From positions 2,046,001 through 2,110,000 of the forward strand of contig NC_009523.1 of the NCBI RefSeq assembly GCF_000016665.1: 64,000 nt of DNA. Direction: 5' to 3'. Origin of the DNA: Roseiflexus sp. RS-1 (lineage in GTDB: Bacteria > Chloroflexota > Chloroflexia > Chloroflexales > Roseiflexaceae). Shown one piece after another: positions 1-30,458 of this stretch. The notes under the pieces were generated by a model. It was not told where the DNA came from, ran no database searches, and saw only the letters and a program-made list of their open reading frames with translations. Each line of letters begins with the position of its first letter. Within the stretch, counting starts at the first letter, position 1. The translations under genes were made by a program, and so were the position numbers.

Positions 1-992
1 GTGTTGTGACGCTGCGCCAGCCACAGTACACCATCGGGCGCAATCCGGCGCGCGATCTGCACCTCGACTCGCCGGTCGTGTCGAATATGCACGGTCGGAT
101 CGAGGCGGGACCGCAGGGCGCGCAACTGATCGATCTCGGCAGCACGAATGGGACCTTCATCGGTGAGCGTCGCCTGCCGCCGAATCAGCCGTACCCGCTG
201 GTTCCCGGCGAGGAAGTGCGGATCGGACCGTTTCTTCTGATCTATGTCCCGCCTGGCGTGACGTATCCGCCTGAAGAAGTCGCGCTGCCGGTCGCGGAAG
301 CGCCTGAACCGCTTCCCATCGTTGTGGAGCGACCGTCCGCAGCCGAAGCGCTGTTTGATGAAGCGGCGGCAGGCGAGGAAGGCGCCGGCGGCGAATCTGC
401 GGCAGCAGTGGAGACGCCTGAAGCGCCAGGTGCGCCGCCAGCGCCGCCCGAAGCGCCGGTCTTTGTGGCGCAGGAGTTCCCCGAACGCATGCCGGTGCGC
501 TATACCGCGCCGCCCGATGGGCTCGACAGTCGCTACCTGCGCTACCTGCCAGCGATCTTTCAGGAAAACGAGTTCCTGGGGCGCTACCTGCGCATCTTCG
601 AGACGATCTGGGAGCCGCTGGAGTGGCGCCAGAACCATATCAACCTGTATTTCGACCCACGCACCTGTCCGCCGTCGTTTCTGCCCTGGCTGGCAGGATG
701 GCTCGATCTGGCGATCAATCCCTACTGGCCCGAATCGCGTATTCGCCGCCTGATTGCGGAAGCGGCCGATCTCTACCGCTGGCGCGGCACTGCCTACGGT
801 CTCAAGCGACTGATCGAGGTGGTGACCGGTCTGACGCCGACGATCACGGAACATCCGGCGCAACCGTTCGTTTTTCACGTGTCGCTCGTTATTCCACCGG
901 GGAGTGATGTCGATGCGATCCTGATCGATGATCTGGTGCGCACCCACAAACCGGCGCACGCCGGGTATATCCTGGATATTCGCCATGGATGA
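1..992 (+). CDS. FHA domain fused to phage tail protein I domain (5' end cut by window)
   Basis: The reading frame is open to the left window edge. The first in-frame start is GTG at 6, but the FHA fold would lack its first strand there, so the gene probably begins upstream. Residues ~1-85 form an FHA domain (TIGR, then S-N-M-H, then DLGSTNGTF), a phosphothreonine-binding module. A Pro/Ala/Glu-rich linker (~90-160) leads to a tail-protein domain (~165-328, with LRYLPAIFQ, LPWLAGWLDL and YRWRGTAYGLKRLI) of the P2 gpI/TIGR02242 type found at the baseplate of contractile injection systems. It overlaps the next gene by 8 bp. The domain calls come from motif recognition. The link to a contractile injection locus to the left is inference, because that DNA is outside the window. 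Confidence 0.8.
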   Translation, partial: VVTLRQPQYTIGRNPARDLHLDSPVVSNMHGRIEAGPQGAQLIDLGSTNGTFIGERRLPPNQPYPLVPGEEVRIGPFLLIYVPPGVTYPPEEVALPVAEAPEPLPIVVERPSAAEALFDEAAAGEEGAGGESAAAVETPEAPGAPPAPPEAPVFVAQEFPERMPVRYTAPPDGLDSRYLRYLPAIFQENEFLGRYLRIFETIWEPLEWRQNHINLYFDPRTCPPSFLPWLAGWLDLAINPYWPESRIRRLIAEAADLYRWRGTAYGLKRLIEVVTGLTPTITEHPAQPFVFHVSLVIPPGSDVDAILIDDLVRTHKPAHAGYILDIRHG

Positions 993-2592
993 CATTACGG
1001 CTATGCTCAGACGGAGTTACGATGAAGCGCCGTACCCTGGACGCGCCTATGCGCATACCCATCCCGACTACATGGCGGCGCTGGCGACGTTGCTCGGTCT
1101 GAACCCGCCGCCGGTTGCGCATTGCCGCGTACTGGAAATCGGGTGCGCTGCCGGTAGTAACCTGATACCAATGGCGCTGAGTCTGCCGGAGGCGACGTTC
1201 GTCGGCATCGATCTCTCGCCACGCCAGATAGCCGATGGGCGTCGGATCATCGAGACCCTTGGCATGACCAATGTAACTCTGCTGGTGCGCGATGTGCAGG
1301 AGGTCGGCGATGAATTGGGGCAGTTCGACTATATCATCGCGCATGGAGTCTACTCCTGGGTTCCGGCGCCGGTGCGCGACCGGCTCATGGCGTTGACGAA
1401 ACGCTCGCTTGCGTCACATGGAATTGCATATATCAGTTACAATACCTATCCAGGATGGCATATCCTGGGAGCATTGCGGGATCTGATGATCTATGCCGCC
1501 AGGGGCGTCGAGGATCCGCGCGAACGCGCACGTATCGCCCTGGCGCTCCTCGACATGCTGGCAGAGAGCGACTCGGAGAACGCGAATGCGTTTCATAGTT
1601 TTCTTGCCGCGTATGCCGGGCAGTTCCGATCAGTGCTGAGTCGTCTGGGTTCGCTCAGCCACGCATTTCTGATCCACGACGCGCTCGAGGTGGTGAACGA
1701 ACCGGTCTCCTTCGCACAATTCGCCGCTCACGCTGCGCAGCACGGGTTGCAGTACCTGTCCGAAACCGAATTTCCGATGGTCTTGCCGCTGGGATTGAAA
1801 CCGGAAACGGTCGATGCCATCCGTTCTTTTTCACGAAGCGGCATTGATCTGGAGCAGTACATGGATTTTCTCCGCGGTCGACAGTTTCGTCAGACGCTCC
1901 TCTGCCATGATCATGTGACCGTGCGACGAACGTTGCGTCCAGAACGGTTGATGGGGATGTCGGTCGCTGCGCTGATGCATCCGGAGACGCAACCGCTCGA
2001 TCTTGCCGGGAGCGAGTGGGTGGTGTTCCGCAATCTGCATGGTGTGGCGTTCAGCGTCTCTGCGCCGATCACCAAAGCGGCGCTGATCTGCCTGGCTGAG
2101 GCGTCGCCGCGTGCGGTTGCATTTGAGGATCTGGTCGTCGCAGCGCAGCGTCGAGCAGTGGCTGCGGGAGCATCACTGGAGGACACGGAACCGTCAGCGC
2201 TGGCGCGCCGGTTGGGCGGCGATCTGCTGCGCGCATTTGCCACGGCGACCTCGCTCGTGTCGTTCCATCTACATCCCCCGGCAGTGGCAACGCGCCCTGG
2301 CGAACGTCCAAAGGTGACGCCCCTGGCGCGCCTGGAGGCGCAGCACGGTGAAGAGGTGACGAATCTGTACCACGATGTGATCTCCCTCGATCCGTTCGAC
2401 CGTCACCTGGTGCAGTCGCTCGATGGGCGCCACGACCGCAGGGCGTTGGAGGAGATGATGGCTGCCGCAGTGACCGCCGGTGAGGTTCCGTATGCCGGGG
2501 ATGATGGACGGGCAGCGTCGCTGGCAGGGCTTGCCGCCGACATTGAGCAACGGTTGAACTGGTTTGCGCAGGTTGCGCTGCTGGTTGAGTGA
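985..2592 (+). CDS. SAM-dependent methyltransferase with C-terminal regulatory domain
   Basis: This 535-aa protein is read from ATG 985, which overlaps the stop of the preceding FHA-tail gene by 8 bp and implies translational coupling. An upstream in-frame start at 928 would lie deep inside the neighbour and is less likely. Residues ~45-150 carry a class I methyltransferase fold: motif I is VLEIGCAAGSN, followed by FVGIDLS. The C-terminal half resembles the methyltransferase regulatory domain (PF10119 type). The substrate cannot be read from sequence. Its coupling to a tail-protein gene suggests modification of an injection-system component or a co-transported product, which is inference. Confidence 0.75.
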   Translation: MDDITAMLRRSYDEAPYPGRAYAHTHPDYMAALATLLGLNPPPVAHCRVLEIGCAAGSNLIPMALSLPEATFVGIDLSPRQIADGRRIIETLGMTNVTLLVRDVQEVGDELGQFDYIIAHGVYSWVPAPVRDRLMALTKRSLASHGIAYISYNTYPGWHILGALRDLMIYAARGVEDPRERARIALALLDMLAESDSENANAFHSFLAAYAGQFRSVLSRLGSLSHAFLIHDALEVVNEPVSFAQFAAHAAQHGLQYLSETEFPMVLPLGLKPETVDAIRSFSRSGIDLEQYMDFLRGRQFRQTLLCHDHVTVRRTLRPERLMGMSVAALMHPETQPLDLAGSEWVVFRNLHGVAFSVSAPITKAALICLAEASPRAVAFEDLVVAAQRRAVAAGASLEDTEPSALARRLGGDLLRAFATATSLVSFHLHPPAVATRPGERPKVTPLARLEAQHGEEVTNLYHDVISLDPFDRHLVQSLDGRHDRRALEEMMAAAVTAGEVPYAGDDGRAASLAGLAADIEQRLNWFAQVALLVE

Positions 2593-2660
2593 TGGGTTAG
2601 TGCGCCTGGACGCCAGAGGTACAACCCAAATGTTTGAGACATTCTGGATCAGGGAAGTTT

Positions 2661-2822
2661 GACTTCGCTGCAAAAACGCACCGCCGAGACGCCGAGAGCG
2701 CAGAGAACTTCAAAAACGAAAGGTATGCGCGGCGAGGCATGATGCATTGGAGCGACTCGCTCTGGCATCTTCCTCTGCGAACGCTGCGCCGCTGCGGTGA
2801 TATGCCCTTTTTGCAGTGGACT
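2661..2822. repeat. Dispersed intergenic repeat, copy 1
   Basis: This 280-bp gene-free stretch holds a segment rich in the motif accgccgagacgccgagagc, followed by a partly inverted counterpart near 2775-2822. The same core, in the opposite orientation, recurs at 36730-36960 and 47110-47215. Translating it gives the familiar spurious peptide HRRDAESAE, so the short ORF across it is not a gene. The element lies directly upstream of the first kinase gene. Confidence 0.65.
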
Positions 2823-2871
2823 CAAGTTTGCTTTACTCGCCCCCGGATGACAGACGCTCAGGAGCGGTTCT

Positions 2872-5800
2872 ATGACAGAGTTCATCGGTCAGACGATCGG
2901 TAATTATCGGGTTGAAGCAGTGCTCGGCGCCGGGGGCATGGGGCAGGTGTTTCGTGCGCGACATATTCACCTTGATCGCCCGGTGGCGTTGAAGGTGATG
3001 CATGCCAATCTGTCGCACGATCCCGGCTTTCAGGCGCGCTTTCGCCAGGAAGCCCGTGCGATCGCCGCGCTTCAGCATCCGAATATCGTTGAAGTGTACG
3101 ATTTCGGTGAGCAGAATGGCTTGATGTATCTGGTGATGGAACTGTTGAGCGATGGGTCGCTGCGCGGGTTGATGCAGAAGCACGCTCGCGAGGGCAAGCC
3201 ATGGCCCCTGCTGCTGGCAATCGATCTGGTGCGCCAGGCAGCCGAGGGGTTGGCGTATGCCCACAGTCAGGGGATGATCCACCGCGACATCAAGCCGGAC
3301 AATATGCTGCTGCGCGCGGTTTCTGGCGCGCCAGGGCGCTATACCCTCAAAATTACCGATTTTGGGCTGGCGCGCATGGCGGAAGGATCGACGATGACGG
3401 CAACCGGTACGGCGATGGGCACGCCTGCCTACATGTCGCCGGAACAGTGTCAGGGAGCGCACGTCGATCTCCGTAGCGATATTTATGCGCTGGGAGTGGT
3501 GCTCTACGAGGTGGCGACCGGGTATCTGCCGTTTACGGCAGCCACGCTGAGTGAGGCGGCGTACAAGCATGTGTTTGTGCCGCCGACGCCGCCACGTCAG
3601 GTGCGCGCCGATCTGCCGTCGGAGTTGGAGGAGATTGTGCTGCGCTGCCTGGCGAAGCGCCCGGAAGAACGGTTTGCCAGCGCCGCTGAGGTTGCCGCCA
3701 GTCTGAAAGCGCTCCTGGCGCGCCCCGATCCGACGCTGACCCACGCCACGGTGATGGCGCATCCCAATGAAGCGCCGCCGGTCTCGCCGCAGGGGGTTGC
3801 ACCACCCCCGCCTCCGCCTGTGGTTGCTCCGCCGCAACCAACGGCAGTGGCGCCATCGAGTGGGACGTTGCCACCGGCGATCCCGTCGCTGCCGGGCGCC
3901 GCGCACCTGCCGCGTATCCAGGTGCGCGATAGCAGCGGCAATCTGCTGCGCGTGGTTGAGTTGACGAGCGATGGCGTCACGGTGGGACGGCAATCAACGA
4001 ATACGCTGGTGCTCGAATCGGAAGGGGTCTCGCGTTCGCACCTGCGGGTAGACTGGGATGGGCGGCAGGTGACGGTGACCGATCTGGGGTCGAGCAATGG
4101 AACGTTGCTGGGTGCAACGCGCCTTCCGGCGCGGGCGCCACACCCGTGGGGTTGGCGCGAGGTGGTGCGCGTCGGTCCGTTCTGGTTGCGCCTGGAGCCG
4201 CCAGCGCGCCTCGCCGAACAGGGCGGCGCGCTGTTGCAGCAACTTCTTGATGCGCAACCGACCGCCACACCGCCGCCTGCCGCCGCAACGCGCCCGATGC
4301 CGACCGGTATGGCGACTGCCAGTATCAGCACCGGGCGCATCGGTGTGGTGCTGGAAGATAAAACTCTGACTCTGAATCCGGGGCAACCGGCGCCGCTGCG
4401 CCTGACGCTGGCAAATCTGGGAACGGTCGTGGATCATTTCAGCATCGAAGTGGATGGTGCGCCAGCGGAATGGGTGCGCCAGCCTGCCGATGCGCTTCAG
4501 TTGATGCCGGGTGTGCAGATGCCGGTGGTGCTGACCGTAACCGCCCCGCGGTCACCGGCGAGTCGCGCCGGTGATTACCAGGTGACGCTGCGGGTGCGTT
4601 CGCGCGAAAACCCGTCGGAGGTGGGCGTGGCGCACGGGCAATGGACGGTGCTGCCCTTTGCTGCGCCAGTGTTGTCCCTCGCGCCAAAACGGGCCGCCGG
4701 GCGCGGACAGGCGCGCTTTACCACCACCCTGCGCAACAATGGCAATGCTCCAATCCAGTGCGCGCTGCGCGCCGAAGATGATGAACACGCGCTGCGTTAC
4801 CGCTTTGATCCGCCGGAGGTGACGCTGGATCCAGGCGCCGAAGTCGATGTGCCGACGACGGTCACCGGTCCGCAGCGCTGGTTTGGTCGCGAACAGACAC
4901 GCAGTTTCATGGTCGGGGCCGTTGTAGCGGGCGGCGAAGGACCGCCTGTGGCAACCGGGCAATTCGTGCAGATGCCGATCATTCCGGCGTGGGCGGTCAC
5001 GCTGTTGCTCCTGCTCATTCCGCTGTGTCTGGGCGGGGTGTTCTTCGGCAATGAAATGCTGGTTGTGCGCCCGGCGGCAGCGACGGCGACTGCGGCGACC
5101 GCCGAAGCAGCCGGTGTGATCGCGGCAGCGAATACCGCGACTGCGATTGTTGTCAACACAGCGGTTCAGGCGACAATCGAAGCCAAAGAGACGGTAGCGC
5201 TCGTGCAGCAGCAGACGATCGCCGCCGCGCCGATCGAGACCCAGATCGCGTTCCAGTCGGAGCAGAACACACAGATCGCCCAGGCGCAACAGACCCAACA
5301 GGCGCAGCAGGCGCAGCAGGCGGCCGCGCAACAGACCCAACAGGCGCAGCAGCAACAGCAGCAAGCGGCGCAGCAGACGCAACAGGCGCAGCAGGCGATC
5401 CAGCAGGCGACCCAGCAGGCGGCCGCACAACAGACTGCCGCTGCAGCCGCACAGCAGGCAACACAGGCAGTGCTGGACGCGCAGGCGACGCAGCAGGCGC
5501 TCGATGCACAGGCGACCATGGCGGCGGCAGCGAATGCAGAGACGGCCAGTGCGGTCGCCGCGCAGCAGACCACACTGGCGCAGACGGCGGCGGTCGTCGC
5601 GGCGCAGCAAACATCGGTCGCTGCAACGGCAACGACGCAGGCAGCGGCATTCAATGCGTTTCTCGGCGATTGGGTCAATGTCGATACCGCAACGAGCGGT
5701 ATGACTCGCCTGGTGATCGAAAAGCAGAACGAGACGAACTATACGTTCCACGGCTATGGCAAATGTACGCCGAGCGACTGCGACTGGGGCGTGATCCAGG

Positions 5801-6033
5801 TGCCGTATACGTCGGGGCAACTGGTCGGGGTGTATGATTTTGGTTTCAAGACGACGCGCATCACCGTTCGTTTGCAGGGCGACGATCTGCTGGCGGAAGT
5901 CTTCGATGATTACCGTCCTTCCGATCCCCGTCCTGATCGAACGACGAACTATGTGCTGCGCCGGCAATGGGTCTTGCGACCGGACATAATTATTCAACCC
6001 CCGCTCATTCTGCGGTTGACGCCTACGCCATAA
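2872..6033 (+). CDS. Transmembrane Ser/Thr protein kinase with FHA domain (kinase 1)
   Basis: This 1053-aa protein starts at ATG 2872, with AGGAG at 2860-2864 as ribosome binding site. Residues ~10-275 form a complete Hanks-type kinase: Gly loop [13 protein letters not shown] lysine, HRDIKPDN catalytic loop, DFG and [11 protein letters not shown] Pro-rich linker leads to a canonical FHA (~345-430; VGR, SRSH, SSNG). Two beta-sandwich domains of NEW3/CARDB-like appearance (~485-700) precede one membrane helix (~706-726). The outside part is an extreme Ala/Gln/Thr-rich stretch (~765-925) and a compact C-terminal domain with two Cys (~927-1053). It is the first of three similar kinases in tandem. 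The ligand sensed by the external domain is unknown. Confidence 0.88.
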   Translation: MTEFIGQTIGNYRVEAVLGAGGMGQVFRARHIHLDRPVALKVMHANLSHDPGFQARFRQEARAIAALQHPNIVEVYDFGEQNGLMYLVMELLSDGSLRGLMQKHAREGKPWPLLLAIDLVRQAAEGLAYAHSQGMIHRDIKPDNMLLRAVSGAPGRYTLKITDFGLARMAEGSTMTATGTAMGTPAYMSPEQCQGAHVDLRSDIYALGVVLYEVATGYLPFTAATLSEAAYKHVFVPPTPPRQVRADLPSELEEIVLRCLAKRPEERFASAAEVAASLKALLARPDPTLTHATVMAHPNEAPPVSPQGVAPPPPPPVVAPPQPTAVAPSSGTLPPAIPSLPGAAHLPRIQVRDSSGNLLRVVELTSDGVTVGRQSTNTLVLESEGVSRSHLRVDWDGRQVTVTDLGSSNGTLLGATRLPARAPHPWGWREVVRVGPFWLRLEPPARLAEQGGALLQQLLDAQPTATPPPAAATRPMPTGMATASISTGRIGVVLEDKTLTLNPGQPAPLRLTLANLGTVVDHFSIEVDGAPAEWVRQPADALQLMPGVQMPVVLTVTAPRSPASRAGDYQVTLRVRSRENPSEVGVAHGQWTVLPFAAPVLSLAPKRAAGRGQARFTTTLRNNGNAPIQCALRAEDDEHALRYRFDPPEVTLDPGAEVDVPTTVTGPQRWFGREQTRSFMVGAVVAGGEGPPVATGQFVQMPIIPAWAVTLLLLLIPLCLGGVFFGNEMLVVRPAAATATAATAEAAGVIAAANTATAIVVNTAVQATIEAKETVALVQQQTIAAAPIETQIAFQSEQNTQIAQAQQTQQAQQAQQAAAQQTQQAQQQQQQAAQQTQQAQQAIQQATQQAAAQQTAAAAAQQATQAVLDAQATQQALDAQATMAAAANAETASAVAAQQTTLAQTAAVVAAQQTSVAATATTQAAAFNAFLGDWVNVDTATSGMTRLVIEKQNETNYTFHGYGKCTPSDCDWGVIQVPYTSGQLVGVYDFGFKTTRITVRLQGDDLLAEVFDDYRPSDPRPDRTTNYVLRRQWVLRPDIIIQPPLILRLTPTP

Positions 6034-6096
6034 CCAGGGTGTGCCGCGCAACACAGACGACGCAGCTTCATTCCCATCACACAGGAGCCGCAGACC

Positions 6097-9000
6097 ATGA
6101 CTGAGTTCATCGGCAAAACGATCGGCAACTATCGCATCGAAGCGCTGCTCGGCGCGGGCGGCATGGGACAGGTCTTTCGCGCGCGCCACATCCTGCTGGA
6201 TCGTCCGGCGGCGCTGAAGTTGCTGCACGGCAATCTGGCGCAGGATCCGATGTTTCAGACCCGCTTCCGCCAGGAGGCGCAGGCGGCGGCGAAACTGCGC
6301 CATCCGCATATCGTCGAGGTGTTTGACTTCGATGAATTCGAGGGGATGGCGTATCTGGTGATGGAACTGGTGACCGGCGGCTCGATGCGCGGCTGGTTGC
6401 GGTCTGCGGCGTCGCAGACCGCCGGGAGTCTCGTGCAGGGGCTGGAACTGGTGCGCCAGGCGGCGGACGCGCTGGCGTATGCGCATGCGATGGGCATGGT
6501 GCACCGCGACATCAAGCCGGATAACCTGTTGCTGCAGCCCGGCTTTGCCGGACGCGGTCCGACGATGAAGGTGGCGGACTTCGGGCTGGCGCGCATGACC
6601 GAGGGCAGCAATCTGACGGCGACGGGGATGGCAATGGGGACGCCTGCCTATATGTCGCCGGAGCAGTGCCAGGGGAAGCCGCTGGATGGACGGAGCGACA
6701 TCTATGCGCTGGGGGTGGTGCTGTACGAAGTGGCGACCGGTACGCTGCCGTTCGTGGTCAAAACCGTCAGCGAGGCGGTGTTCAAACACGTGTATGTGCC
6801 CGCGCCGTCGCCGCGCCAGGTGCGTCCGGAGTTGCCTGACATCGTCGAGGCGATTGTGCTGCGCTGTCTGGCGAAACTGCCGGAGGAACGGTTTGCAACT
6901 GCGGCCGATCTGGCGGCGGCGTTATCCGAGGCGCTCGGCGCCATTGCGCCCGATCTGGCGATTGGGGAGGATGAGGGTGGCGCGATGTTGACCGACATCG
7001 CCGCGCGCACCCGCATCCAGACGCCGCGTGGCGGTCCGGCGCCGGTGGCGCTGACGCTTATGGGTGGCGGGTCGTTGCCGCGGGTGCAGGTGCTGGACGA
7101 TGCGGGCACGCTGCTCCAGGTGGTGGCGGTGCGTCCCGGCGGACTGACGGTGGGGCGGGTGGAGCGCAATGACGTGGTGCTGACGGGGGAGGGAGTGTCA
7201 CGCCACCATCTGCGCCTGGAATGGGACGGAATCCAGGTGCTGGCGACCGATCTGGGGTCGAGCAACGGCACCCTGCTGGAAGAACGACCGCTGCCGCCGC
7301 AGGAAGCGGTGGTCTGGCCCTGGCGCACCATGCTGCGCGTGGGGTCGTACTGGTTGCGCCTCGATCCGCCGGAGCGCGCCGAGAGCGGTCAGGTCGCCAC
7401 GCCGTCTGGAGGTGCGCTGATGACGCCGCAAACGGTGGCAACGCCAGGCGGCGGGGTGATGACGGTGCCGCCATTGTCAGGCGGGAGTGCGCCGCTCCCC
7501 TATTCCCAGGCGTTTGTGACGACCGGACTGGTGGGGATGACGCTCGAACCGGAGACGCTGGCGGTGACGCCGGGGCAGACCGCGACCGTGGCGGTGACGC
7601 TGGCGAACCTGAGCGATCAGGTGGATCATCTGACCGTCAGCGTCACCGGTGTGCCAGAGACGTGGGTGACGCTTCCTCCGGCGGCGCAGATGCCGCCGCG
7701 CGGTCAAACGACGGTGATGCTGGCGGTGCGCCCGCCAGCCGAACCGGACGCTCGCGCCGGTGAGTATCCGGTGGAGGTGAGCGCGCGGTCGCGCGCGCGC
7801 CCTGCGGAGGGCGGGTCGGTGCTGGCGCGCTGGACGGTGCGCCCGTATGTGCGAGAGGAACTGACGTTGTCGCCTGGGCGCGCGCGCGGGAGGATGCGGG
7901 GGGTGCTCAGAGCGACGGTGCGCAATCTGGGGAATGCGGCGGTGCGCTACCGGTTGCAGGGTGAGGCGGATGAAGCAGGGGTGCAGGCAACGGTGGCACC
8001 GGAGGAACTGGTGCTCGACGCGGGTGCGACCGGCAGCGCAATGGTGACGGTCGAAGGACCGCTCAAGCCGTTCGGCGGCGAGACGACCCATGGGGTGACG
8101 CTCTCGGCGACGGCGGATCACGGAGCGACGCTGCGCGCGCATGGGATGTGGGTCCAGGGAGCGTTGCTGCCGGTGTGGAGTCTCATTGCCGTCGTGTTGA
8201 TGGCGGGGTTCGGCGTCTCGCATGTCTTTGGCGCATTGCCCGCGTCACTGGCGGGCGGATTGCCGGGGTATGCCATCCTGCGCAGCGGCGAGCGTGTCAA
8301 TGCGGACATTGCAGGTCAGTCGGGAGCGCTGCCGACGCCTGCAGCGACGGCGACGCAAGCGCCGACGGCGGAACCCGTTGCGCCGGTCGAGCCGACGGTT
8401 GAGACCGGTGCAGCAACGCCGACGGTTGAGACCGGTGCGGTCATCACCAACGACCAGGCGACAGCGACGGCTGTGGCGGCGTCTGGCGGAAATGGTGCGA
8501 ATGCGGGTGGCGGAAGCGGCGGCGATAGCGGCTCAGGTGGCGGCGGGGGAAGCGGGGGCGCAGGAGGTTCAGGGGGTTCTGGCGGCGCAGGTGGCGCAGG
8601 TGGAACCGGGAGTGCGCCAACCGCAACGGCGACGGCAACGCGCACCCCAACCCCGACGGCAACCCCCACGCCGGTTGCGACCGCGGCATCGACTGCGACG
8701 CCGGAGTCGACCGCGACGCTGGAGCCGACCGTGACTCCGGAGCCGACTGCGACGCCGGAGCCGACCAGCACTGCCACAGCATTGCCGACGAATACGCCGA
8801 CTCTCGCGCCCTCGAATACGCCAACGCCGACAGAAACGCCGATTCCGCCAACACCCACGCCCACGCATACGCCAACACCCACGCCCACGCATACGCCAAC
8901 ACCCACGCCCACGCATACGCCAACACCTACACACACACCAACACCCACAGTCACGCCAACACCTACGAATACGCCAATACCCACTGTGGCAGTGCCGCTT

Positions 9001-9318
9001 CATCGCGCTCCGCCGAACGGCGCCGTGTTCTACCATTTCCCACGTGATACCATTCTGCAGTGGGCGCAGGTTTCAGGCGCGGTGTCCTACCGGGTTGAAA
9101 TCGATTGTTTTCATTGTTGTGGCTGGGGTGTGTGGTGCACAGATGTCGGGCGAACATGGAGGGTCGAAAGTGTTCCCCATATCGATGGAGCTTCATTCAA
9201 TGAGTTCCGTTTCTCCTGGGTTGGCGCTCAGCCAGGGCGCTGGCGCGTGTCGGCAATCGATGCCAATGGGCGCGAAGGTCCGCGCCATGAGTGGTGGTAC
9301 TTTGAGTTTCGACAGTGA
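6097..9318 (+). CDS. Transmembrane Ser/Thr protein kinase with FHA domain (kinase 2)
   Basis: This 1073-aa paralogue lies 63 bp after kinase 1 and begins almost identically ([19 protein letters not shown]). The kinase domain (~10-275) keeps the Gly loop, VALK-type lysine (AALK), HRDIKPDN and DFG. The FHA (~328-425) keeps VGR, SRHH and SSNG. Two beta-sandwich domains follow, then one membrane helix (~689-711). The external region is a Gly/Ser linker (~797-841), a Thr/Pro linker made partly of an exact 24-bp repeat, and a C-terminal Ig/FN3-like domain (~965-1073) with several Cys. A cell-surface sensor kinase acting on neighbouring FHA proteins is a reasonable inference. Confidence 0.88.
8848..8919 (+). 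repeat. 24-bp tandem repeat encoding a Thr/Pro linker
   Basis: Three exact 24-bp copies encode a PTPTPTHT-type linker in kinase 2, flanked by degenerate versions. This is an in-frame coding microsatellite prone to length change, not a CRISPR. Confidence 0.8.
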
Positions 9319-9321
9319 GCA

Positions 9322-11175: not shown

Positions 11176-11225
11176 CGCTCGTTTGCGTATTTCCTGACTC
11201 AAGGGTTATAGCACGGGGGCTTTGC

Positions 11226-13910: not shown

Positions 13911-13945
13911 CAGCATTCCGTACCGCATTTCAGGAGGTGTGCGTC

Positions 13946-16900
13946 GTGTCCGCCGACAATCCATCCAACACACCCGCCGACCGGCAGACGCATGCCGGAC
14001 TTTCGCCATCGTCGTCCGATAAGGCGCCGCACATCGTTGTGCTCGACGCCCAGGGCAATCCGGTTCAGACGCTCGCATTGACGCGCGCTGGCGTCACGAT
14101 CGGTCGTCTGGCGAACAATGCGCTGCGGCTTGACGCGCCGGTCGTCTCGCGCACTCATGCGCGGATCGACTGGGACGGCGCGCGCGTGACGGTGACCGAC
14201 CTGGGATCGAAGAGTGGCGTCCAACTGGGGACGATGCGCCTGTCTCCGCAAACGCCACAGGTCTGGGATCCTGCGCAAACGCTTCAGATCGGTCCGTATA
14301 CGTTGCGTCTGCATATCGGTGCGCCTTCACCCGCCGACCCGGCGTCGCCGGTGACCGGAGATCTGCATGCCGCGCCAACCCAAAAGGTCAGGGAAGCGGG
14401 TCTCTCAGTTGCGCTGTCGCCGGCGCATACGGCGCTGACCCTGATCCCCGGCGAGCCGACCGACGTCGAGGTGCGCGTCACCAACCAGACGAATGCACCA
14501 CAGACGGTTGCGCTCTCGCTCAGTGGTCTGCCAGAGACCTGGGTCGAACCTGCGCCAGCGCTGCGGGTTGCGCCATTCTCGATGAAGACCGCCATCATCC
14601 GTGTTCAGGCGCCAGCATCTCCCGAAAGTGCCGTTCGTCCCTATGAGGTGCGCGTGCGCGTCTCGTCTCAGGAAGATCCTTCCAGCAGCGCCGAACTTCG
14701 CCTGGAATGGCGGGTTGCGCCGTTTCTGTCGGGGGAGGTGGAGGTTGCGCCGCATCGCGCGCTGGGACGTGAGCAGGCGGTTGTAACGGTGCACCTGCAC
14801 AACGGTGGCAATGTACGCGCGACGTATCACCTGCGTACCGGTGATATGGCGCAGATGGTCGGCGCTGCGTTCACCCAGGAATATGTCACCCTCGATCCGG
14901 ATGAAACCGTCGAGATTCCACTGACGATCACCGCGCCGCGTCGCGTTTTCGGTGGTCATCGTGTCTACACGGCGCCAATCGAGGTCGAAGAAACCGATGA
15001 AGTGTCTGGTTCGCTCAGGCGCACGTTGCACGCCGAAGTTCGCTTCGTGCAGACGACGCTGTTGCCGCTCTGGGCGCCGGTTGCGCTGTTCGTTCTGCTG
15101 CTGTTGCTGTATGGACTGAACCTCCCGGCGGCGCTCTGGGCGCGCGTTCCTGGAAGCGGTTTTCTGGCAGGGGTGCAGAGCGGCGGCATTCGCGCCGAAG
15201 CCACGCAGGTTGCCGCGCTTGCAACCCAACAGGCGCTTCAGGGGCAGACGGCTCTCGCCGAAGTGGGAGCGGCGCTGGCTGCGACCCAATCGGCAGTGGC
15301 GGCGCTGCCGACCGAACAGCAGGCGAGTGCACAGACGGCGCTTGCCGGAGCGTTTCAGGCAACCGTGGCTTCATTGTCGGTGGCGCAGACCGCGAATGCG
15401 CAGTCGCTTGCGGCGACCAACGCGGCGCTCGAGGCGCAACTGGCGCAAACCGCCACGGCGCAAAATGTGTCGACAACACCCGAACCGGCGTCGACTATCG
15501 GCGTGCCGATGACCACCGCGCGACTGACGACGACGCCGACAGCGGGCGCGACGTCCACGCTGCGCCCAACCGCAACCTCTGCACCATCGGCGACATCCGT
15601 TCCGCAACCTACGACGGTCGCGGTCGCCAGCGCTATGGTGGAACCTGCGACGATCGCGTTTGGCAGCATTAAGAAGGGGACCGCCAGTGCGCCGCGCACG
15701 CTGCTGCTGAAGAATACCGGCAACGCACCGCTGACCATCAGCGAGATTGTGATTGGCGGCGCCCATGCCTCGGAGTTTGCGCGCGTCGCTGGAGGCGCCG
15801 ACAACTGTGGCACGTCGCTGGCGCCCGGCGCGTCGTGCACCATTACTCTGACCTTTACCCCATCTGCCGCCGGTCAGCGCACCGGGCAACTGCGGATCGA
15901 AAATTCGTCTGCCGACGGAGTGGTGCTTGTGAGCCTGTCCGGCAGCGGAACGGAAATTCCGGAGGTTGCGTCGATTGTGCGCATCGGCAACAGCCCGACC
16001 AATGCCGCCAGCGCTCAGTTCCAGGTCAATTTCAGCGAACCGGTGAAAGGTGTAACGGCTTCGAATTTCAGCGTGGTGACCCTTGGCGGCGCCGTCGGCG
16101 CTGCCATCGCATCGGTATCCCCTGCCAGCGGCACGTCCACGAATCAGTGGACGGTGACGGTTAATGCTGGCGGCGGCAACAAAACCATCCGCCTCGATTT
16201 CGTCAACAGCAATGGCGTGACCAACGCCGATGGCAATGCGGTGGAGAAACTGCCGTTCAACGCTGGCGACCAGATTGTGATCGATACGACGGCGCCGACG
16301 GTTGCGCTGGGCAATACGCCGCCATCGCTCACGAATAACCCGGCGGCGCCGTTTACGTTTAGCGGCAGCGATGACGTGAGTTCCAACGTAACCTTCGAGT
16401 GTCGCGTTGATGCCGCCAGTTTTGCACCATGCACCAGCCCGTTTACCCCTTCCGGTCTGGCTGACGGCAACCGTACCTTCAATGTGCGCGCACGCGATCA
16501 GGCGGGGAATGTCAGTGCGCCAGCATCGTATACCTGGGCGATTGATACCTCGCCGCCGGATACGACGATAACAGGCGGTCCTGCCAATAGCAGCACCAGC
16601 GGACCGACCGTCTCATTTACGTTCTCATCCGAAGCGGGCGCAACCTTCCAGTGTCGCATGGATAGCGGATCGTTCAGCGCCTGCACCAGCCCATTCACAG
16701 CGACTGGTCTTACTGATGGTTCTCACACCTTCCATGTGCGCGCTCTCGATGCCGCCGGGAATGTTGATGCCAGCCCGGCGACGCGCACCTGGACGGTGGA
16801 TGCCACGCCGCCGGATACGACGATAACGGGAGGTCCTGCCAATAGCAGCACCAGCGGACCAACCGTCTCATTTACATTCTCATCCGAAGCGGGCGCAACC

Positions 16901-18232
16901 TTCCAGTGTCGCATGGATAGCGGATCGTTCAGCGCCTGCACCAGCCCATTCACAGCGACTGGTCTTACTGATGGTTCTCACACCTTCCATGTGCGCGCCA
17001 TCGATACGGTAGGGAACATCGACCCGACTCCGGCAACGCGCACCTGGACGGTGGATGCCACACCGCCGGATACGACAATTCTCAGCGGACCAACTGGCGT
17101 TATCAGTGTGACAGGAGTCACGTTCACGTTCACTTCGACCGAGACCAGTTCGACGTTCCAGTGCCGGTTGAATACCGGGTCATTTGTGAGTTGCACCAGT
17201 CCGCACACCATCAGCGGGTTGGTGAATGGTTCACAGACCTTTGAAGTGCGCGCGATCGATGGGGTGGGGAACGTCGATCCGACGCCAGCAACCCGAAGCT
17301 GGACGGTCGATACGCAACCGCCGGAAACGACGATCACCAGCGGTCCTGCTGACGGCAGCACGACAGGTCCGGGGGTTACATTCAACTTTACCTCATCTGA
17401 GACGGGCAGCACGTTTGAGTGCAGTCTGGATTCCGGCCCATTTTTGCCGTGTACTTCTCCGCAGACACTCTCACTCTCGAACGGTTCACATACATTTGGT
17501 GTGCGCGCGATCGACGCGGTCAATAATATCGATCCGACTCCGGCGACTCGCACCTGGACAGTCGATGCCATACCGCCGGCTGTCACCAGTGTCACATCGA
17601 CCACGCCGAACGGGGTGTATGGTGTCGGCGCTACCATTAATGTGATGGTCAACTTTAGCGAGTCGGTGACGCTGACCGGTGGTTCCTTGCAGGTGAACCT
17701 CAACAGCGGGGCAACGGTGACAATTGCGACGCTCAGCGGCGTCAGCGCCAGTGGTATCTATGTGGTCGGTGCAGGTCAGAACGCTTCCGATCTCGACTCC
17801 GTTTCGCTGACGCTGACCGCTGGTGCAACCCTGCGTGACGCGGCGGAAAACAACGCCGTCCTGACCATTCCGACAGGTCAATCGCTGGCGGATTTGCGTG
17901 ATATTGTGATCGATACAACCCCGCCTACTCCGCCAACCGTTACCAACCCTGCCAGCGCGACAACGGTGCCGTCTACCACCACGACACTTAACATAACAGG
18001 TAATGCAGAAGCGGATAGCCTGGTTCAGGTATGGAATGACATAGACAACAATGGTGCGATCGATGGGGGTGAGACTGTTGTTGCATCTCAGCAACTGACC
18101 GGAGGCGCTACAAGTTTCAGCATCAGCGTGTCGCTGGCAACCGGCGACAACAACTTCGTCGTTACTGCAACCGATGCGGCGAACAATCGCTCGTCGCCGA
18201 CCGATGTGCCGACGATTACCCGGAGTCCGTAA
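13946..18232 (+). CDS. Membrane-anchored FHA protein with large external Ig-like repeat region
   Basis: AGGAGG at 13932-13937 decides the start: it overlaps the upstream GTG at 13937 but sits 8 nt before GTG 13946, giving a 1428-aa protein (MSADNPSNT). The FHA is at ~29-122 (IGR, SRTH, binding loop SKSG without Asn). Two shared beta-sandwich domains and one membrane helix (~374-396) follow. Outside are an Ala/Gln/Thr stretch, an ASPM/HYDIN-type choice-of-anchor domain (~566-668; IAFGSIKKGT, NNCGTSLAPG-like), then at least five ~85-residue Ig-like repeats of bacterial surface type, each with paired Cys (FQC...CTSPF), and C-terminal bacterial Ig-like domains. Adhesion or surface display driven by an intracellular phospho-signal is inference. 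Confidence 0.8.
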   Translation: MSADNPSNTPADRQTHAGLSPSSSDKAPHIVVLDAQGNPVQTLALTRAGVTIGRLANNALRLDAPVVSRTHARIDWDGARVTVTDLGSKSGVQLGTMRLSPQTPQVWDPAQTLQIGPYTLRLHIGAPSPADPASPVTGDLHAAPTQKVREAGLSVALSPAHTALTLIPGEPTDVEVRVTNQTNAPQTVALSLSGLPETWVEPAPALRVAPFSMKTAIIRVQAPASPESAVRPYEVRVRVSSQEDPSSSAELRLEWRVAPFLSGEVEVAPHRALGREQAVVTVHLHNGGNVRATYHLRTGDMAQMVGAAFTQEYVTLDPDETVEIPLTITAPRRVFGGHRVYTAPIEVEETDEVSGSLRRTLHAEVRFVQTTLLPLWAPVALFVLLLLLYGLNLPAALWARVPGSGFLAGVQSGGIRAEATQVAALATQQALQGQTALAEVGAALAATQSAVAALPTEQQASAQTALAGAFQATVASLSVAQTANAQSLAATNAALEAQLAQTATAQNVSTTPEPASTIGVPMTTARLTTTPTAGATSTLRPTATSAPSATSVPQPTTVAVASAMVEPATIAFGSIKKGTASAPRTLLLKNTGNAPLTISEIVIGGAHASEFARVAGGADNCGTSLAPGASCTITLTFTPSAAGQRTGQLRIENSSADGVVLVSLSGSGTEIPEVASIVRIGNSPTNAASAQFQVNFSEPVKGVTASNFSVVTLGGAVGAAIASVSPASGTSTNQWTVTVNAGGGNKTIRLDFVNSNGVTNADGNAVEKLPFNAGDQIVIDTTAPTVALGNTPPSLTNNPAAPFTFSGSDDVSSNVTFECRVDAASFAPCTSPFTPSGLADGNRTFNVRARDQAGNVSAPASYTWAIDTSPPDTTITGGPANSSTSGPTVSFTFSSEAGATFQCRMDSGSFSACTSPFTATGLTDGSHTFHVRALDAAGNVDASPATRTWTVDATPPDTTITGGPANSSTSGPTVSFTFSSEAGATFQCRMDSGSFSACTSPFTATGLTDGSHTFHVRAIDTVGNIDPTPATRTWTVDATPPDTTILSGPTGVISVTGVTFTFTSTETSSTFQCRLNTGSFVSCTSPHTISGLVNGSQTFEVRAIDGVGNVDPTPATRSWTVDTQPPETTITSGPADGSTTGPGVTFNFTSSETGSTFECSLDSGPFLPCTSPQTLSLSNGSHTFGVRAIDAVNNIDPTPATRTWTVDAIPPAVTSVTSTTPNGVYGVGATINVMVNFSESVTLTGGSLQVNLNSGATVTIATLSGVSASGIYVVGAGQNASDLDSVSLTLTAGATLRDAAENNAVLTIPTGQSLADLRDIVIDTTPPTPPTVTNPASATTVPSTTTTLNITGNAEADSLVQVWNDIDNNGAIDGGETVVASQQLTGGATSFSISVSLATGDNNFVVTATDAANNRSSPTDVPTITRSP
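16561..17070 (+). repeat. Two near-identical 255-bp Ig-like repeat units
   Basis: The unit beginning tacgacgataac at 16561 recurs at 16816 with only a few substitutions, and a more diverged unit begins at 17071. The period of 255 bp equals 85 residues, one Ig-like domain. The near identity indicates recent duplication or gene conversion. Confidence 0.85.
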
Positions 18233-18241
18233 CATGCCGCG

Positions 18242-18250
18242 TGATATAAT
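18242..18250 (+). promoter_or_regulatory. Extended -10 promoter for the pseudokinase gene
   Basis: TGATATAAT is a perfect extended -10 (TGn plus TATAAT). It lies just after the stop of the previous gene and 36 bp before ATG 18287. No good -35 is visible. It suggests the last gene of the array has its own transcription. Confidence 0.6.
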
Positions 18251-18286
18251 GAAGCATCTCCTTTCTCTTTGACGAAAGTCACTTCC

Positions 18287-21200
18287 ATGCTCGACTCCGC
18301 AGCGAATGAGCAGACCATTGGCGCGTATCGCCTGGAAGACGAGATCGCTACCGATAGCGCGGGGGTTGTCTATCGCGCGCGCCATCTTCCCACGGCTCAA
18401 CCGGTGGCGATCCGCATTCTGCCGCCCGACATCGTTGCAGCGCCCGACTTCCGTGAGCGTTTCGAGCGCGAGATGCGCGCAGTCGCTGCGCTCTATCATC
18501 CGCACGTTGCCGAACTGTATGAGTTTGGAATCGGCGAGGGGCGCGCGTTCATTATCGGTGAACTTCCATCCGATGGGTTTCTGCGTGATGCGATCCGGCG
18601 CCGCACGCTCCCGTTGCGCCTGAGCGTCGAACTGGCGCGTCAGGCGGCGGTCGGGTTGAGTGCAGCGCATGCCCGTGGCGTCGTTCACGGAGCGCTCAAG
18701 CCCGAAGCATGTGCGCTCTTCGCTGGACCGGGCGGCAGCTATCTGCTGAAAGTCGGCGATTTTGGCATTGCGCGTTTGATCGCCCCAGCTGCCGCCAGTC
18801 CCGCCGTCTACCAGGCGCCAGAGCAACGCGCTGGCGGTGAACCGGATCCATCCGTCGATTGCTATGCACTGGGTGCCATCCTGTACGAGATGATCGTCGG
18901 CTCGCCGCCGCCGCTCACCGCTATTCCCCTGTTGCGCATGGTGCGCCCCGATACGCCAGCCGACCTTGAGGCGCTGGTTGCGCGTTGCCTGGCATCCACG
19001 CCATCGGATCGCTTCAGTCGCATGAATGAACTGGCAGAAGCGCTGGACGCCCTGGTTGCAGCAATGGGGGAGCGTCTGTCGGTCGCTGCCGCCGACGAAA
19101 CGACGGTCATCGAGCAACGTTCTGCCGCCGATGATGCAACGGTTGCAGCGCATCTGTTTACTCCTGCCCCCGAAGATGCAACGCTCATCGCGCCGGTGAC
19201 GCCGGGGGCGGGTGAGGGCGCGACGGTCATCGAAGAACCGGTGGCGCCGGGGGCGGGTGAGGGTGCGACGGTCATCGCTCCGGGGGCGGGTGAGGGCGCG
19301 ACGGTCATCGAAGAGCCGGTGGCGCCGGGGGCGGGTGAGGGCGCGACGGTGATCGAAGCGGGGGCGGCGGAGGCGGATGAGGGTGCGACAGTCATCGCGC
19401 CTGAGGCGTCGCCGACGGAGGGTGCGCCATCGAGTGCGGTTGCCGACGCCACTGCTGCACTGATTGCAGACACAACGTCCGACGAAGCGCCGACAGTCCT
19501 TCCAACGCCGTTGGTTGCGCCGCAACAACAACCGTCGGCAAGGGGTGATGTCACGGCGGAAGCGCCATCGGTTGTTCCACCCGACGAAGCAGTTACCATC
19601 CTTCCCGAACCGGTTCCAGCGATCAGCACACCCCTGCCTCAGGTTTCAGCCACTCAATCGCTGATCATCGCCACGCCGCCGCCTGGCTTCCCGGCGCTGC
19701 CCCCGCCCTCGAGCATGCCGCAGGTGCAACTGCTCGATAATGCCGGCGCCCCGCTGCGTCTGCTCAGTCTGACCGGTGATGGTCTGGCGATTGGCAGAGC
19801 GGAGTCCAATGATCTGCCGTTGCCTGATGAGAGTGTTTCCGAAGAGCACGCATTCATCGATTGGGATGGGCGGCAGGTGACGATTACCGACCTGGGTTCA
19901 AAGAATGGCACCTTTGTCGCCGGTATCCGTCTGCCGCCGCAGGAGCGGTATCCGTGGCAGGGGGGCGCTCCGGTGCGGATCGGGGTCTACTGGTTGCGTC
20001 TGATTCCGCCGCTGGCGCAGGCGACGAGTGTGGTTGCGCCTGCCGTCTATGGCGTTCCCGGTCCTGAAGCGGTAGCAGCGCCGCCGCAGGCGGTTGGTGC
20101 GCCGCCGCCCCGCGCTCCCGCTCCGGTCACGCCGAGTTTTGGCGCGCCTGCCATTCCTCCGACTGCCGCAGCGTCGCCGCAGGCAGGCATTACCCAAATG
20201 CCCGCGCCTGGAACTCCGCGAAGCGCTCCGCTGCCGCCGCAGGCGCCTCTCCAGCCGCCCGGCGACACTCCAGCTGGCGCGGCTGGCGTGACGCAACCGC
20301 CGCTCAGTTCCAACCGCTACGCCGTCGAACTCGAACAGGATGTCATAACGCTGACCCCCGGCATGCCGGCTGTGCTGCGCATGACCCTGCACAACTACAG
20401 CGATAGTGTCGATCATCTGCGGGTCGACGTGCAGGGTGTGCCCGAAACCTGGATTCAGGGTCCGACCCCTGAACCGCAATTGTTGCCGAACGGTCGCGCA
20501 CCGGTGGCGCTCAACATTAATGTGCCGCGCACGCCAGAGAGCCGCGCCGGTCCTTATCCGGTCACCATCTATGCCCGCTCACGGAGCCGCCCCAATGAAG
20601 CTGGCGTCGCTCAGGCGACCTGGAATGTTCAGGCGTTCACCGAGCATCGGCTGGAATTGAAACCGCGCCGTGCGGCCGGATGGCGCAAAGCCCACTATAA
20701 CCTGACGCTCACGAATGCGGGAAACATGCCGATGCGCTATACCCTGATCGGCGAAGACGATGAGCAGGCGCTTGCCTTCAATCTGGGAGAGGACGCCGTC
20801 GCGCTCGAACCCGGCGCCGCATACAAACACCGCCTGACAGTGCGGGGACCGATCCGCTGGCTCGGTTCGTCGCAACCACGCAGTTTCTCGGTTCAGGCGC
20901 GCACCGAGAAGCGTTCGGACACCCAAACCTCATCGGCGCAGTTCATCCAGCGGGCGCTGATCCCGACCTGGCTCATTCCGCTGGCGCTGCTGGCATTTCT
21001 GGCGATCCTCTACTTCGTCACGCTGCCGCCGGTCATCCGCAATCCGCGCTTTGAGCGATCTCCGCAGATCGCAGGTCAGCCGGTGCGTCTGATCTATGAA
21101 ATCGATAATGCGCAGCGCGTCGAACTGTTGCCGCTTGGCGTCCCGGCGCCTGCCGGGTCCGGTCGCCGCACCTTCGAGTTTCTCGATGCGACGGCAATTC

Positions 21201-21790
21201 CCACCGATCTGAGCATTCTGGCGATCAGTCGGTTTGGCGTTCGCGCGGAGGCGTCGGTGGTGGTTGCCGTGGTGACGCCAACACCGACGCTGGCGCCAAC
21301 AGCGACCCCGCCGCCGCCGACCGCTCAACCAACACCCGAGGTCTTGCCTGCGCCGACCGCAGCGGCGCTACCCCCTGCGCCTCCGCCAGTGCCTCCGCCT
21401 GCGCCGCCACCAGCGGCAACACCAACCCCGGAAGTGTCGCTGGCGGAACTCCTGCGCCTCGAATGCCGATCGGGGGAGCGCATTGTGATCACCGGCGCGG
21501 GACCGCCGCGCGAGTCGTTCCTGCTCTACTTCGGACGGCGCGCTGTGAGCGGCGGCAGCATAGCGCCCAATGGCGTCTATCGCATCGAAATGCTGATCGG
21601 ACCGGAACGACCGGGAGAGTATCCCGTGAGCGTCCGGTTGCGTCTCAGCGACCGTCCCCTGCCGATCCGCACCTATCAGTACGGCGCCGACCGGCTCGTC
21701 AACCTGAGCAGCGTCGCACCGACCGCCGTGACAACGGAGATCCTGTGCGTCGTGCAGCGCGCGGAACCGACGCCAACCGTGGCGCCGTAA
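18287..21790 (+). CDS. Pseudokinase-FHA transmembrane protein
   Basis: This protein is 1167 aa from ATG 18287; an upstream TTG at 18269 is less likely because it falls too close to the -10. Residues ~5-265 align with the kinases upstream, but the Gly loop is degenerate (ATDSAGVVYRAR), the VAIK lysine is Arg (VAIRIL), and the catalytic loop HRDIKPDN reads HGALKPEA, losing both catalytic Asp and Asn. DFG and APE-like motifs remain. A linker (~272-408) holds about eight ATVI/ATLI motifs with acidic flanks. The FHA (~478-568) keeps IGR and SKNG but has SEEH. Two beta-sandwich domains, one membrane helix (~892-915), a Pro-rich linker and a small beta domain end it. Role as phospho-substrate or scaffold is inference. 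Confidence 0.85.
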   Translation: MLDSAANEQTIGAYRLEDEIATDSAGVVYRARHLPTAQPVAIRILPPDIVAAPDFRERFEREMRAVAALYHPHVAELYEFGIGEGRAFIIGELPSDGFLRDAIRRRTLPLRLSVELARQAAVGLSAAHARGVVHGALKPEACALFAGPGGSYLLKVGDFGIARLIAPAAASPAVYQAPEQRAGGEPDPSVDCYALGAILYEMIVGSPPPLTAIPLLRMVRPDTPADLEALVARCLASTPSDRFSRMNELAEALDALVAAMGERLSVAAADETTVIEQRSAADDATVAAHLFTPAPEDATLIAPVTPGAGEGATVIEEPVAPGAGEGATVIAPGAGEGATVIEEPVAPGAGEGATVIEAGAAEADEGATVIAPEASPTEGAPSSAVADATAALIADTTSDEAPTVLPTPLVAPQQQPSARGDVTAEAPSVVPPDEAVTILPEPVPAISTPLPQVSATQSLIIATPPPGFPALPPPSSMPQVQLLDNAGAPLRLLSLTGDGLAIGRAESNDLPLPDESVSEEHAFIDWDGRQVTITDLGSKNGTFVAGIRLPPQERYPWQGGAPVRIGVYWLRLIPPLAQATSVVAPAVYGVPGPEAVAAPPQAVGAPPPRAPAPVTPSFGAPAIPPTAAASPQAGITQMPAPGTPRSAPLPPQAPLQPPGDTPAGAAGVTQPPLSSNRYAVELEQDVITLTPGMPAVLRMTLHNYSDSVDHLRVDVQGVPETWIQGPTPEPQLLPNGRAPVALNINVPRTPESRAGPYPVTIYARSRSRPNEAGVAQATWNVQAFTEHRLELKPRRAAGWRKAHYNLTLTNAGNMPMRYTLIGEDDEQALAFNLGEDAVALEPGAAYKHRLTVRGPIRWLGSSQPRSFSVQARTEKRSDTQTSSAQFIQRALIPTWLIPLALLAFLAILYFVTLPPVIRNPRFERSPQIAGQPVRLIYEIDNAQRVELLPLGVPAPAGSGRRTFEFLDATAIPTDLSILAISRFGVRAEASVVVAVVTPTPTLAPTATPPPPTAQPTPEVLPAPTAAALPPAPPPVPPPAPPPAATPTPEVSLAELLRLECRSGERIVITGAGPPRESFLLYFGRRAVSGGSIAPNGVYRIEMLIGPERPGEYPVSVRLRLSDRPLPIRTYQYGADRLVNLSSVAPTAVTTEILCVVQRAEPTPTVAP
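19205..19365 (+). repeat. Short coding repeats encoding EGATVIE-type motifs
   Basis: Imperfect 30-48 bp units built on gggggcgggtgagggcgcga encode repeated GAGEGATVI followed by EEP or AP. Further single ATVI/ATLI copies flank the block. They form the linker between pseudokinase and FHA. Confidence 0.8.
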
Positions 21791-28631: not shown

Positions 28632-29053
28632 GCACCCTGCACCGGCCGCTTGATGATCGCACGCAGCTGCGTATCGCGCTCGAAGCGGACGCGGTGCTCA
28701 CGCTCTTGACGCTGTGCGCGCAAGGAACGCTCACGCTGGTCGTCTCTGCGGTGAACGCCTTTGAAACAGCGCGTAATCCCCGCCCGCAGCGGGCGCTGTT
28801 CGTCCAGGCGATCATGGCGCGGGCTGCCGAGTATATCCCGCTGACGGATGAGATTGAGGCGCGGGCGCAGGAGTTGGAGCGCGCAGGCGTCAAAGCGATT
28901 GATGCATTGCATTGGGCGACGGCGGAGGCGGCGGGGGTGGACCGCTTTTGCACCTGCGATGATCGCTTCTATCGCAAAATGAAAGCAGTGCCGGGCGTGA
29001 CGTTGAAAGCGGTCACGCCGCTCGAACTGATCCAGGAGGTCGTGCCATGCTGA
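28610..29053 (+). CDS. PIN-domain ribonuclease-like protein, copy A
   Basis: This 147-aa protein has GGGAG five nt before ATG 28610. PIN acidic residues are visible: Asp6 (IYLDTC), Glu52 (NAFET), Asp98 (KAIDALH) and Asp117/118 (CDDRF), the metal-binding set of VapC-type RNases. It overlaps the following 83-aa gene by 7 bp. The pair resembles a toxin-antitoxin module with the toxin first, and it sits antisense to RHS sequence. The protein is identical to the copy at 33530. Confidence 0.8.
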   Translation: MRIYLDTCTLHRPLDDRTQLRIALEADAVLTLLTLCAQGTLTLVVSAVNAFETARNPRPQRALFVQAIMARAAEYIPLTDEIEARAQELERAGVKAIDALHWATAEAAGVDRFCTCDDRFYRKMKAVPGVTLKAVTPLELIQEVVPC

Positions 29054-29298
29054 CAGGAACGCCGCAGCCGTTGGCGCTGCTCACCGAGCGAGCGTTGCGT
29101 CTGTTGCTGGCGGAGTTGGGACCGATCGACACCGTGCGGTTTTTGAGCCAGTATACCCTGGGCGAGGGCGATGCAGTCGCCGACAAGGATCGGTTGGTCG
29201 GGTCGCTGACGGTGGCAGAGATTGCCGCAGCGATCCGTCAGGCGCAGATGGCGGCTGGCGCGCCAGCCCGCGCGCCAGAAACAGACGACGCGGTGTGA
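29047..29298 (+). CDS. Small partner of PIN protein (possible antitoxin), copy A
   Basis: This 83-aa helical protein (MLTGTPQPLALLTERALRLL, LGPIDTVRFL, LTVAEIAAAIRQ) overlaps the PIN gene by 7 bp and is translationally coupled to it. I do not recognise a DNA-binding fold with certainty. Size, acidity and coupling make it the likely antitoxin. Identical to 33967-34218. Confidence 0.55.
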   Translation: MLTGTPQPLALLTERALRLLLAELGPIDTVRFLSQYTLGEGDAVADKDRLVGSLTVAEIAAAIRQAQMAAGAPARAPETDDAV

Positions 29299-29332
29299 TG
29301 GGCGGACGAATGCGGTTCTGGTGCGGGGTGCG

Positions 29333-29560
29333 GTTCCCAATCGGCTGCCTTGGATTCGCCCCTGCCGCGCCACCGCATCGCGCGGCGCAGCGGTCGGCGC
29401 CCCCGCGCCGGGAACGATGCTATCCGGTGAGATGAACCGCTCGAACGCTGGGTCGCAATACCGCACGCCATAATACATCAACCCCACGCCAGGGTCAACG
29501 CGCTGGCCGGTGAAGGTGGAGTCGGTATGCCGGGCGCTTTCGCTGATGGTGCGCAGCGTG
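29333..29560 (-). pseudogene. RHS core remnant
   Basis: The minus frame reads STFTGQRVDPGVGLMYYGVR, then YCDPAFERFISPDSIVPGAG, a slightly decayed RHS core motif. It ends at the boundary of repeat copy A, showing that the module was inserted into or recombined with an older RHS gene. Confidence 0.6.
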
Positions 29561-29565
29561 CCGTG

Positions 29566-30430: not shown

Positions 30431-30458
30431 CTTTTTCTTCCCTCCTCGCTGACTGGGA

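Follow-up and report, generated by a model that had tools for sequence, protein, structure and literature searches.

The window analyzed here is a stretch of 64,000 nucleotides (positions 2046001–2110000) of the genome of the hot-spring bacterium Roseiflexus sp. RS-1, which is a single contig of 5,801,598 bases. Particles of a contractile injection system (CIS) have been imaged in its relative R. castenholzii (Gaisin et al. 2026, PMC12998442). In the 20 kb upstream of the window, on the same strand, Pfam searches identify a complete CIS (genome 2025027–2045788), comprising genes for an AAA+ ATPase, three eCIS_core proteins, a Pvc16 cap, a sheath, two gp19-type tubes, a CIS_tube/LysM protein, a GPD/base_V spike, gp25, and baseplate J. 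A preliminary description of the window had proposed that its kinase/FHA genes are attached to a contractile injection system, and the sheath, tube, baseplate, and AAA+ genes to be sought on the left under this proposal are all present there. The window itself begins within the last gene of the CIS and continues with the array as follows.

1–992, plus strand: FHA-tail protein I fusion, a Cis12-type wedge protein and the final CIS gene (Pfam FHA and Tail_P2_I)
985–2592, plus strand: methyltransferase with MethyTransf_Reg and PKMT domains (Pfam); overlaps the end of the fusion gene
2872–6033, plus strand: K1, kinase-FHA-Ig-Ig-TM, a coiled/low-complexity stalk, and a small β domain; catalytic motifs intact
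6097–9318, plus strand: K2, kinase-FHA-Ig-Ig-TM, a Thr/Pro-rich stalk, and an outer end; catalytic motifs intact
9322–11175, plus strand: K3, soluble kinase-FHA-Ig-Ig without TM; catalytic motifs intact, NG motif of the FHA domain without Asn
11226–13910, plus strand: F1, FHA-Ig-Ig-TM with an outer Calx-beta domain; NG motif of the FHA domain degenerate
13937–18232, plus strand: F2, FHA-Ig-Ig-TM with outer Ig-like repeats; NG motif of the FHA domain degenerate
18269–21790, plus strand: PK, pseudokinase-FHA-Ig-Ig-TM; right end of the CIS-array block

Judging from Pfam and the gene coordinates, all parts named in the preliminary description lie on the plus strand in the order it gave, from the tail fusion through the pseudokinase-FHA protein. 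Between the methyltransferase and K1 genes lies a dispersed repeat of ~165 bp (window 2659–2824), which occurs ~40 times in the genome, forms a long, imperfect hairpin when folded, and matches no Rfam family. The two flanking genes are contiguous in the genomes designated G323 and G335, so that the repeat looks like an insertion. Farther along the window, two ORFs on the minus strand (27012–28628 and 31908–33548) are paralogs and match RHS repeats weakly, and a 300-nt repeat occurs in three copies within 27501–32720. A surface protein of the cadherin/Big type (1512 aa) is encoded at 47415–51950, and its gene contains three near-identical tandem units of 288 nt (51039–51902).

The fusion protein consists of 346 aa and starts with GTG at genome position 2045952, 49 bp before the window. 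Its FHA and Tail_P2_I domains each score 1.9e-16 in Pfam, and the nearest named match of the tail gene is from uncultured Roseiflexus. The tail part matches chain 9gtp_E, of which the baseplate entry of the S. coelicolor CIS contains six copies. The paper on the 9gtp entry describes one Cis12 per wedge, and we equate 9gtp_E with Cis12. The FHA domain, joined through a long linker, is seen in the sequence itself, and by homology the protein to which it is fused is predicted to sit in the baseplate. The best structure matches of the FHA part of the Cis12 alignment are GarA and related FHA domains, and the phosphothreonine-binding residues are invariant across 10 diverse members.

Alignment of the six large array proteins gives an FHA domain and two β-sandwich (Ig-like) domains common to all, and the AlphaFold2 model of the module consists of two Ig-like sandwiches and a membrane helix (mean pLDDT 87.9). 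The helix directly follows the Ig-Ig pair in five of the six; the exception is K3 (617 aa), which ends after the sandwiches. This composition agrees with the preliminary description, as do the different external ends, which are a small β domain in K1, a Calx-beta domain in F1, and Ig repeats in F2. The outer domain of K1 has a weak avidin/lipocalin-like match, which assigns no named function. In relatives, the outer ends include an FGE-sulfatase domain and a weak β-propeller match (Pfam Lactonase). K1, K2, and K3 retain the K, HRD, N, and DFG motifs. The last protein is a pseudokinase, as had been read from the letters: the Lys of VAIK is replaced by Arg, HRD has become HGA, and the catalytic Asn is absent. 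The general order of domains is (kinase)-FHA-Ig-Ig, then a single TM helix, then an outer end that varies, and the predicted topology is bitopic, with the part before the helix in the cytosol. The kinase domain is nearest to PknB-type models, and the array resembles PknB-type kinases with GarA/FhaB-type partners in this respect and in the nearness of the Cis12 FHA domain to GarA. Unlike those, the array kinases have no PASTA domain, are fused to FHA and Ig-TM, and are linked to a CIS.

The array's 22 kb holds 7 of the 28 FHA matches of the genome (binomial about 5e-8), and this clustering is therefore not due to chance. The Ig module was found at none of the 18 genome regions bearing other FHA matches, and all six module matches scored in the genome (the best six candidates per genome were scored) fall in the array. 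No PP2C match was obtained in the locus; the six PP2C matches of the genome lie elsewhere.

The CIS and the array are inherited as one block. In G316 and G395, which belong to the same genus, the left neighbor of the CIS abuts the right neighbor of the array at a distance of about 160 bp, and these empty sites place the right end of the block at window position 21793. In a third genome, G330 (a draft assembly), a deletion has removed the CIS together with the greater part of the array, leaving only broken pieces of F2 and PK. The empty sites and the deletion together indicate that about 45 kb, from near position 16561 of locus L010 to window 21793, is a single unit that is present or absent. 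Where the block ends on the left, another cap gene of the Pvc16 type (L010 18426–19004) lies immediately 5′ of the AAA+ gene.

To examine the linkage in relatives, the tail protein was searched in 400 Chloroflexota genomes and the neighborhoods were read with custom HMMs seeded on the window. Strong matches of the sheath of this CIS lineage occur in 54 of the 400. The Ig-TM module occurs in 51 of these 54 and in 12 of the 346 genomes without the CIS, as raw genome counts that ignore kinship and with a module alignment built largely from CIS-linked members. The genes after FHA-Cis12 are usually (pseudo)kinase-FHA-Ig-TM or FHA-Ig-TM genes, in several Chloroflexota families and on Deinococcus plasmids. 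The full order methyltransferase-K1-K2-K3-F1-F2-PK is kept in G335. The same order is kept as far as F1 in G323, where two more module genes lie on a separate contig; the locus L094 probably supplies the end that this array lacks. The methyltransferase was observed in Roseiflexaceae loci only (present in G323, G335, and L142). In Thermogemmatispora, Ktedonobacterales, and others, a single kinase-FHA-Ig-TM gene immediately follows FHA-Cis12, and another group of loci has FHA-Ig-TM and then a pseudokinase. Five Deinococcus plasmids carry a (pseudo)kinase-FHA-Ig-TM gene of 1600 aa right after FHA-Cis12, at an internal position of the CIS cluster; for Deinococcota, the comparison covers these plasmids. 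The co-occurrence suggested by the preliminary description is thus found in different families, and in a second phylum as well. A distant search with a 19-row alignment and a scan of viral contigs gave no matches.

A Pfam-based check finds a linked kinase domain at 25 of the 26 FHA-Cis12 loci and at 2 of the 20 loci without the FHA domain (Fisher 1e-9; 3e-8 including the cases with short flanks; 0.005 by family). FHA-Cis12 occurs without a nearby kinase in G161, and likewise in G240 and G238b, which have short flanks. The clear exception among the loci without the FHA domain is G145, in which the CIS locus encodes a kinase and an FHA-TM protein and Cis12 has an Ig-like domain, not FHA. The other, G209, is doubtful: a divergent multi-TM kinase lies ~5 kb from the AAA+ gene, and Cis12 has no FHA domain. 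The linkage is not universal from the side of the module. The preliminary description held that the array belongs with tail genes; these are indeed present beside it, but single (pseudo)kinase-FHA-Ig-TM genes, mostly encoding pseudokinases, exist in some other Chloroflexota with no CIS genes nearby. The loci L082, L083, L084, L086, L087, L090–L094, L096, and L097 represent a family of pseudokinase-(FHA)-Ig-TM genes that are not linked to a CIS and in which the motif has degenerated to HG[AST]; it is distributed in Chloroflexota both with and without the CIS described here.

Sheath, tube, spike, gp25, Cis11, Cis12, cap, and AAA+ genes all lie in one cluster, so the type IId gene set is present, and Gaisin et al. 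placed the Roseiflexus CIS in type IId (PMC12998442). The Roseiflexus, Thermogemmatispora, and Deinococcus CISs of that study are the same systems as those described here; particles were purified from T. carboxidivorans and D. grandis, and Roseiflexus particles were imaged. The authors inferred action inside the producing cell from unanchored intracellular particles and left the firing mechanism of the Roseiflexus CIS open, and neither a kinase nor an FHA domain is mentioned in the main text. A T6SS is rejected, because its TssJLM membrane complex has no Pfam match among the proteins of the block. The phage defense systems MADS and PD-T4-6 are also rejected, because their full gene sets are absent; the five proteins scanned gave only partial matches of the kinase domain or methyltransferase fold.

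The Streptomyces type IId CIS shares with the present one the CIS lineage (by the published placement), the gene set, a Cis12 homolog, a gene for a single-pass membrane protein after Cis12, and CIS-linked Ig-TM proteins. Directly behind Cis12, Streptomyces encodes a zinc-ribbon-TM protein in the place where CisA lies; CisA is necessary for firing, and a contact with the baseplate is predicted for it (PMC12237407). By contrast, Cis12 of the Roseiflexus type bears an FHA domain, the Ig-TM module is fused to a kinase and FHA, and the protein after Cis12 is kinase-FHA-Ig-TM (after the methyltransferase in Roseiflexus). The array begins at the locus position that CisA occupies in Streptomyces. No CisA-like gene (zinc ribbon, TM, and conserved C-terminal domain) was found in FHA-type loci, and no close cisA homolog exists in Roseiflexus according to PMC12998442. 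CisA-like matches follow FHA-less Cis12 in G017, G313, G320, G211, and G155 (weak in the last four), and the loci with a CisA-like gene group with Streptomyces on the baseplate tree. In addition, Cis12 has an N-terminal Ig-like domain in place of FHA in the loci L115, L117, and L118 (G209, G241, and G145, respectively), in which genes for FHA-TM proteins also precede those for the cap and AAA+ protein; these are perhaps a third docking variant.

The states of the kinase and of the Cis12 FHA domain change together. Where the linked kinase is intact, the set of phosphothreonine-binding residues in the Cis12 FHA domain is intact at 13 of 14 loci, the exception being G061b. Where it is dead (G302, G375, G061, G238, and five Deinococcus loci), none of the nine loci keeps the full set, at least one residue being lost in each. 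In D. psychrotolerans, the kinase keeps the Asp equivalent to that of HRD, and its Lys is replaced by Arg. The FHA domain of the kinase protein itself stays intact in Deinococcus. On the baseplate J tree, which has 44 rows and no outgroup from other CIS types, the dead-kinase loci form two clades and the trait requires 2 changes, indicating that few independent events lie behind the coupled decay. These residues are compatible with a kinase phosphorylating a component that the FHA domain would then bind. The phosphothreonine circuit envisaged in the preliminary description, which had drawn on type VI secretion, is supported in part, as to linkage and joint degeneration, but the machine is a CIS assigned to type IId, not a T6SS. 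The T6SS PpkA/Fha/PppA pathway likewise ties a Ser/Thr kinase and FHA to a contractile machine, whereas here the FHA domain is fused to a baseplate protein, there are several kinase-FHA-TM proteins, and the locus has no PP2C match.

The linkage and the common architecture are direct observations, and the best-supported mechanism that we infer from them is that phosphothreonines control how the CIS docks and fires. The same pairing is kept in other bacteria, suggesting that phosphorylation may be used to dock and fire the CIS. We propose, with a probability of roughly 55%, that a phosphothreonine handshake is built into this type IId CIS, in which baseplate FHA domains and membrane Ig-TM partners would serve docking and firing. 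A signal from outside or from envelope stress would activate K1 and K2, phosphothreonines would arise on the kinases or neighboring proteins, and the FHA domains on Cis12 would bind them. This would pull the particles to the membrane with the baseplate leading, and they would fire; the producing cell would probably be killed, by analogy with Streptomyces. The FHA membrane proteins, the pseudokinase, and the soluble kinase may be relays or scaffolds. The array would in this way take over the job of CisA, with kinase control added. A point against the proposal is that the Roseiflexus particles show no sign of anchoring while the cells are intact (PMC12998442), an appearance that fits only triggered, transient docking.

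A serious rival comes from the module itself, which matches Streptomyces CIS-locus proteins at 1e-50 and better and so is not new. By description, not by sequence, the matched proteins appear to be Sco4256–4258 (chaperone-like domain, TM, and variable end), and the array module shares with the Sco4256-type family an N-terminal chaperone-like (Ig) domain, one TM helix, and linkage to a type IId CIS. Sco4256 was found in particles (PMC10020575), deletion of Sco4256–4258 emptied the tubes and abolished CIS-dependent death (PMC10066040), and the set is toxic in E. coli (PMC10020575, PMC10066040). The array proteins may accordingly be effectors carried as cargo, in which Ig-Ig-TM would load or insert into the membrane, the variable outer ends could be effector domains that act or target, rather than choosing the trigger as the preliminary description has it, and FHA and kinase would aid loading or docking. 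However, the array proteins are 600–1430 aa with catalytic kinases, unlike the Streptomyces proteins of 450–560 aa, the FHA domain sits on the outer wedge protein and not on the tube or spike, and the array holds the position of CisA where CisA is missing. We therefore weigh a receptor or anchor above cargo, which we regard as rather unlikely.

The kinases may instead govern expression, assembly, or recycling of the CIS, with the Cis12 FHA domain binding a phosphorylated structural protein during assembly; threonine phosphorylation in the T6SS does act on assembly of the membrane complex (PMC3953482). This is improbable, since membrane-anchored partners with variable outer ends, together with free cytoplasmic assembly (PMC12998442), point to an event at the membrane. 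That an ordinary expansion of receptor kinases adjoins the CIS by chance might be imagined from the unlinked single homologs and from the many kinases that Chloroflexota may hold (39 Pkinase matches in G281). We reject it as very unlikely, because the association holds in several families and in both phyla, the kinase gene lies inside the Deinococcus CIS cluster, FHA is on a baseplate protein, and the CIS and array are jointly absent at the empty sites.

The phosphothreonine handshake may be extended to a fuller picture, for which we see a little less than an even chance. The baseplate would read phosphothreonine through FHA-Cis12 bound to membrane receptor kinases, and an outside signal would dock and fire the particles on the cell's own membrane. 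The system would then be a phospho-gated suicide device that several Chloroflexota lineages have conserved in place of CisA and from which a phospho-independent form has descended in Deinococcus. The open-licence literature yielded no account of a Cis12 protein with an FHA domain or of a CIS that has kinases as partners; the papers retrieved on a CIS with FHA or kinases concern the T6SS or unrelated subjects. The locus offers a candidate answer, concrete and testable through named residues, to the question of what makes free injection particles in the cytoplasm fire, and one protein architecture unites two puzzles of Streptomyces, CisA and the Ig-TM "effectors". If the proposal is true, phosphothreonine control of contractile machines extends from the T6SS to a second, structurally different lineage.
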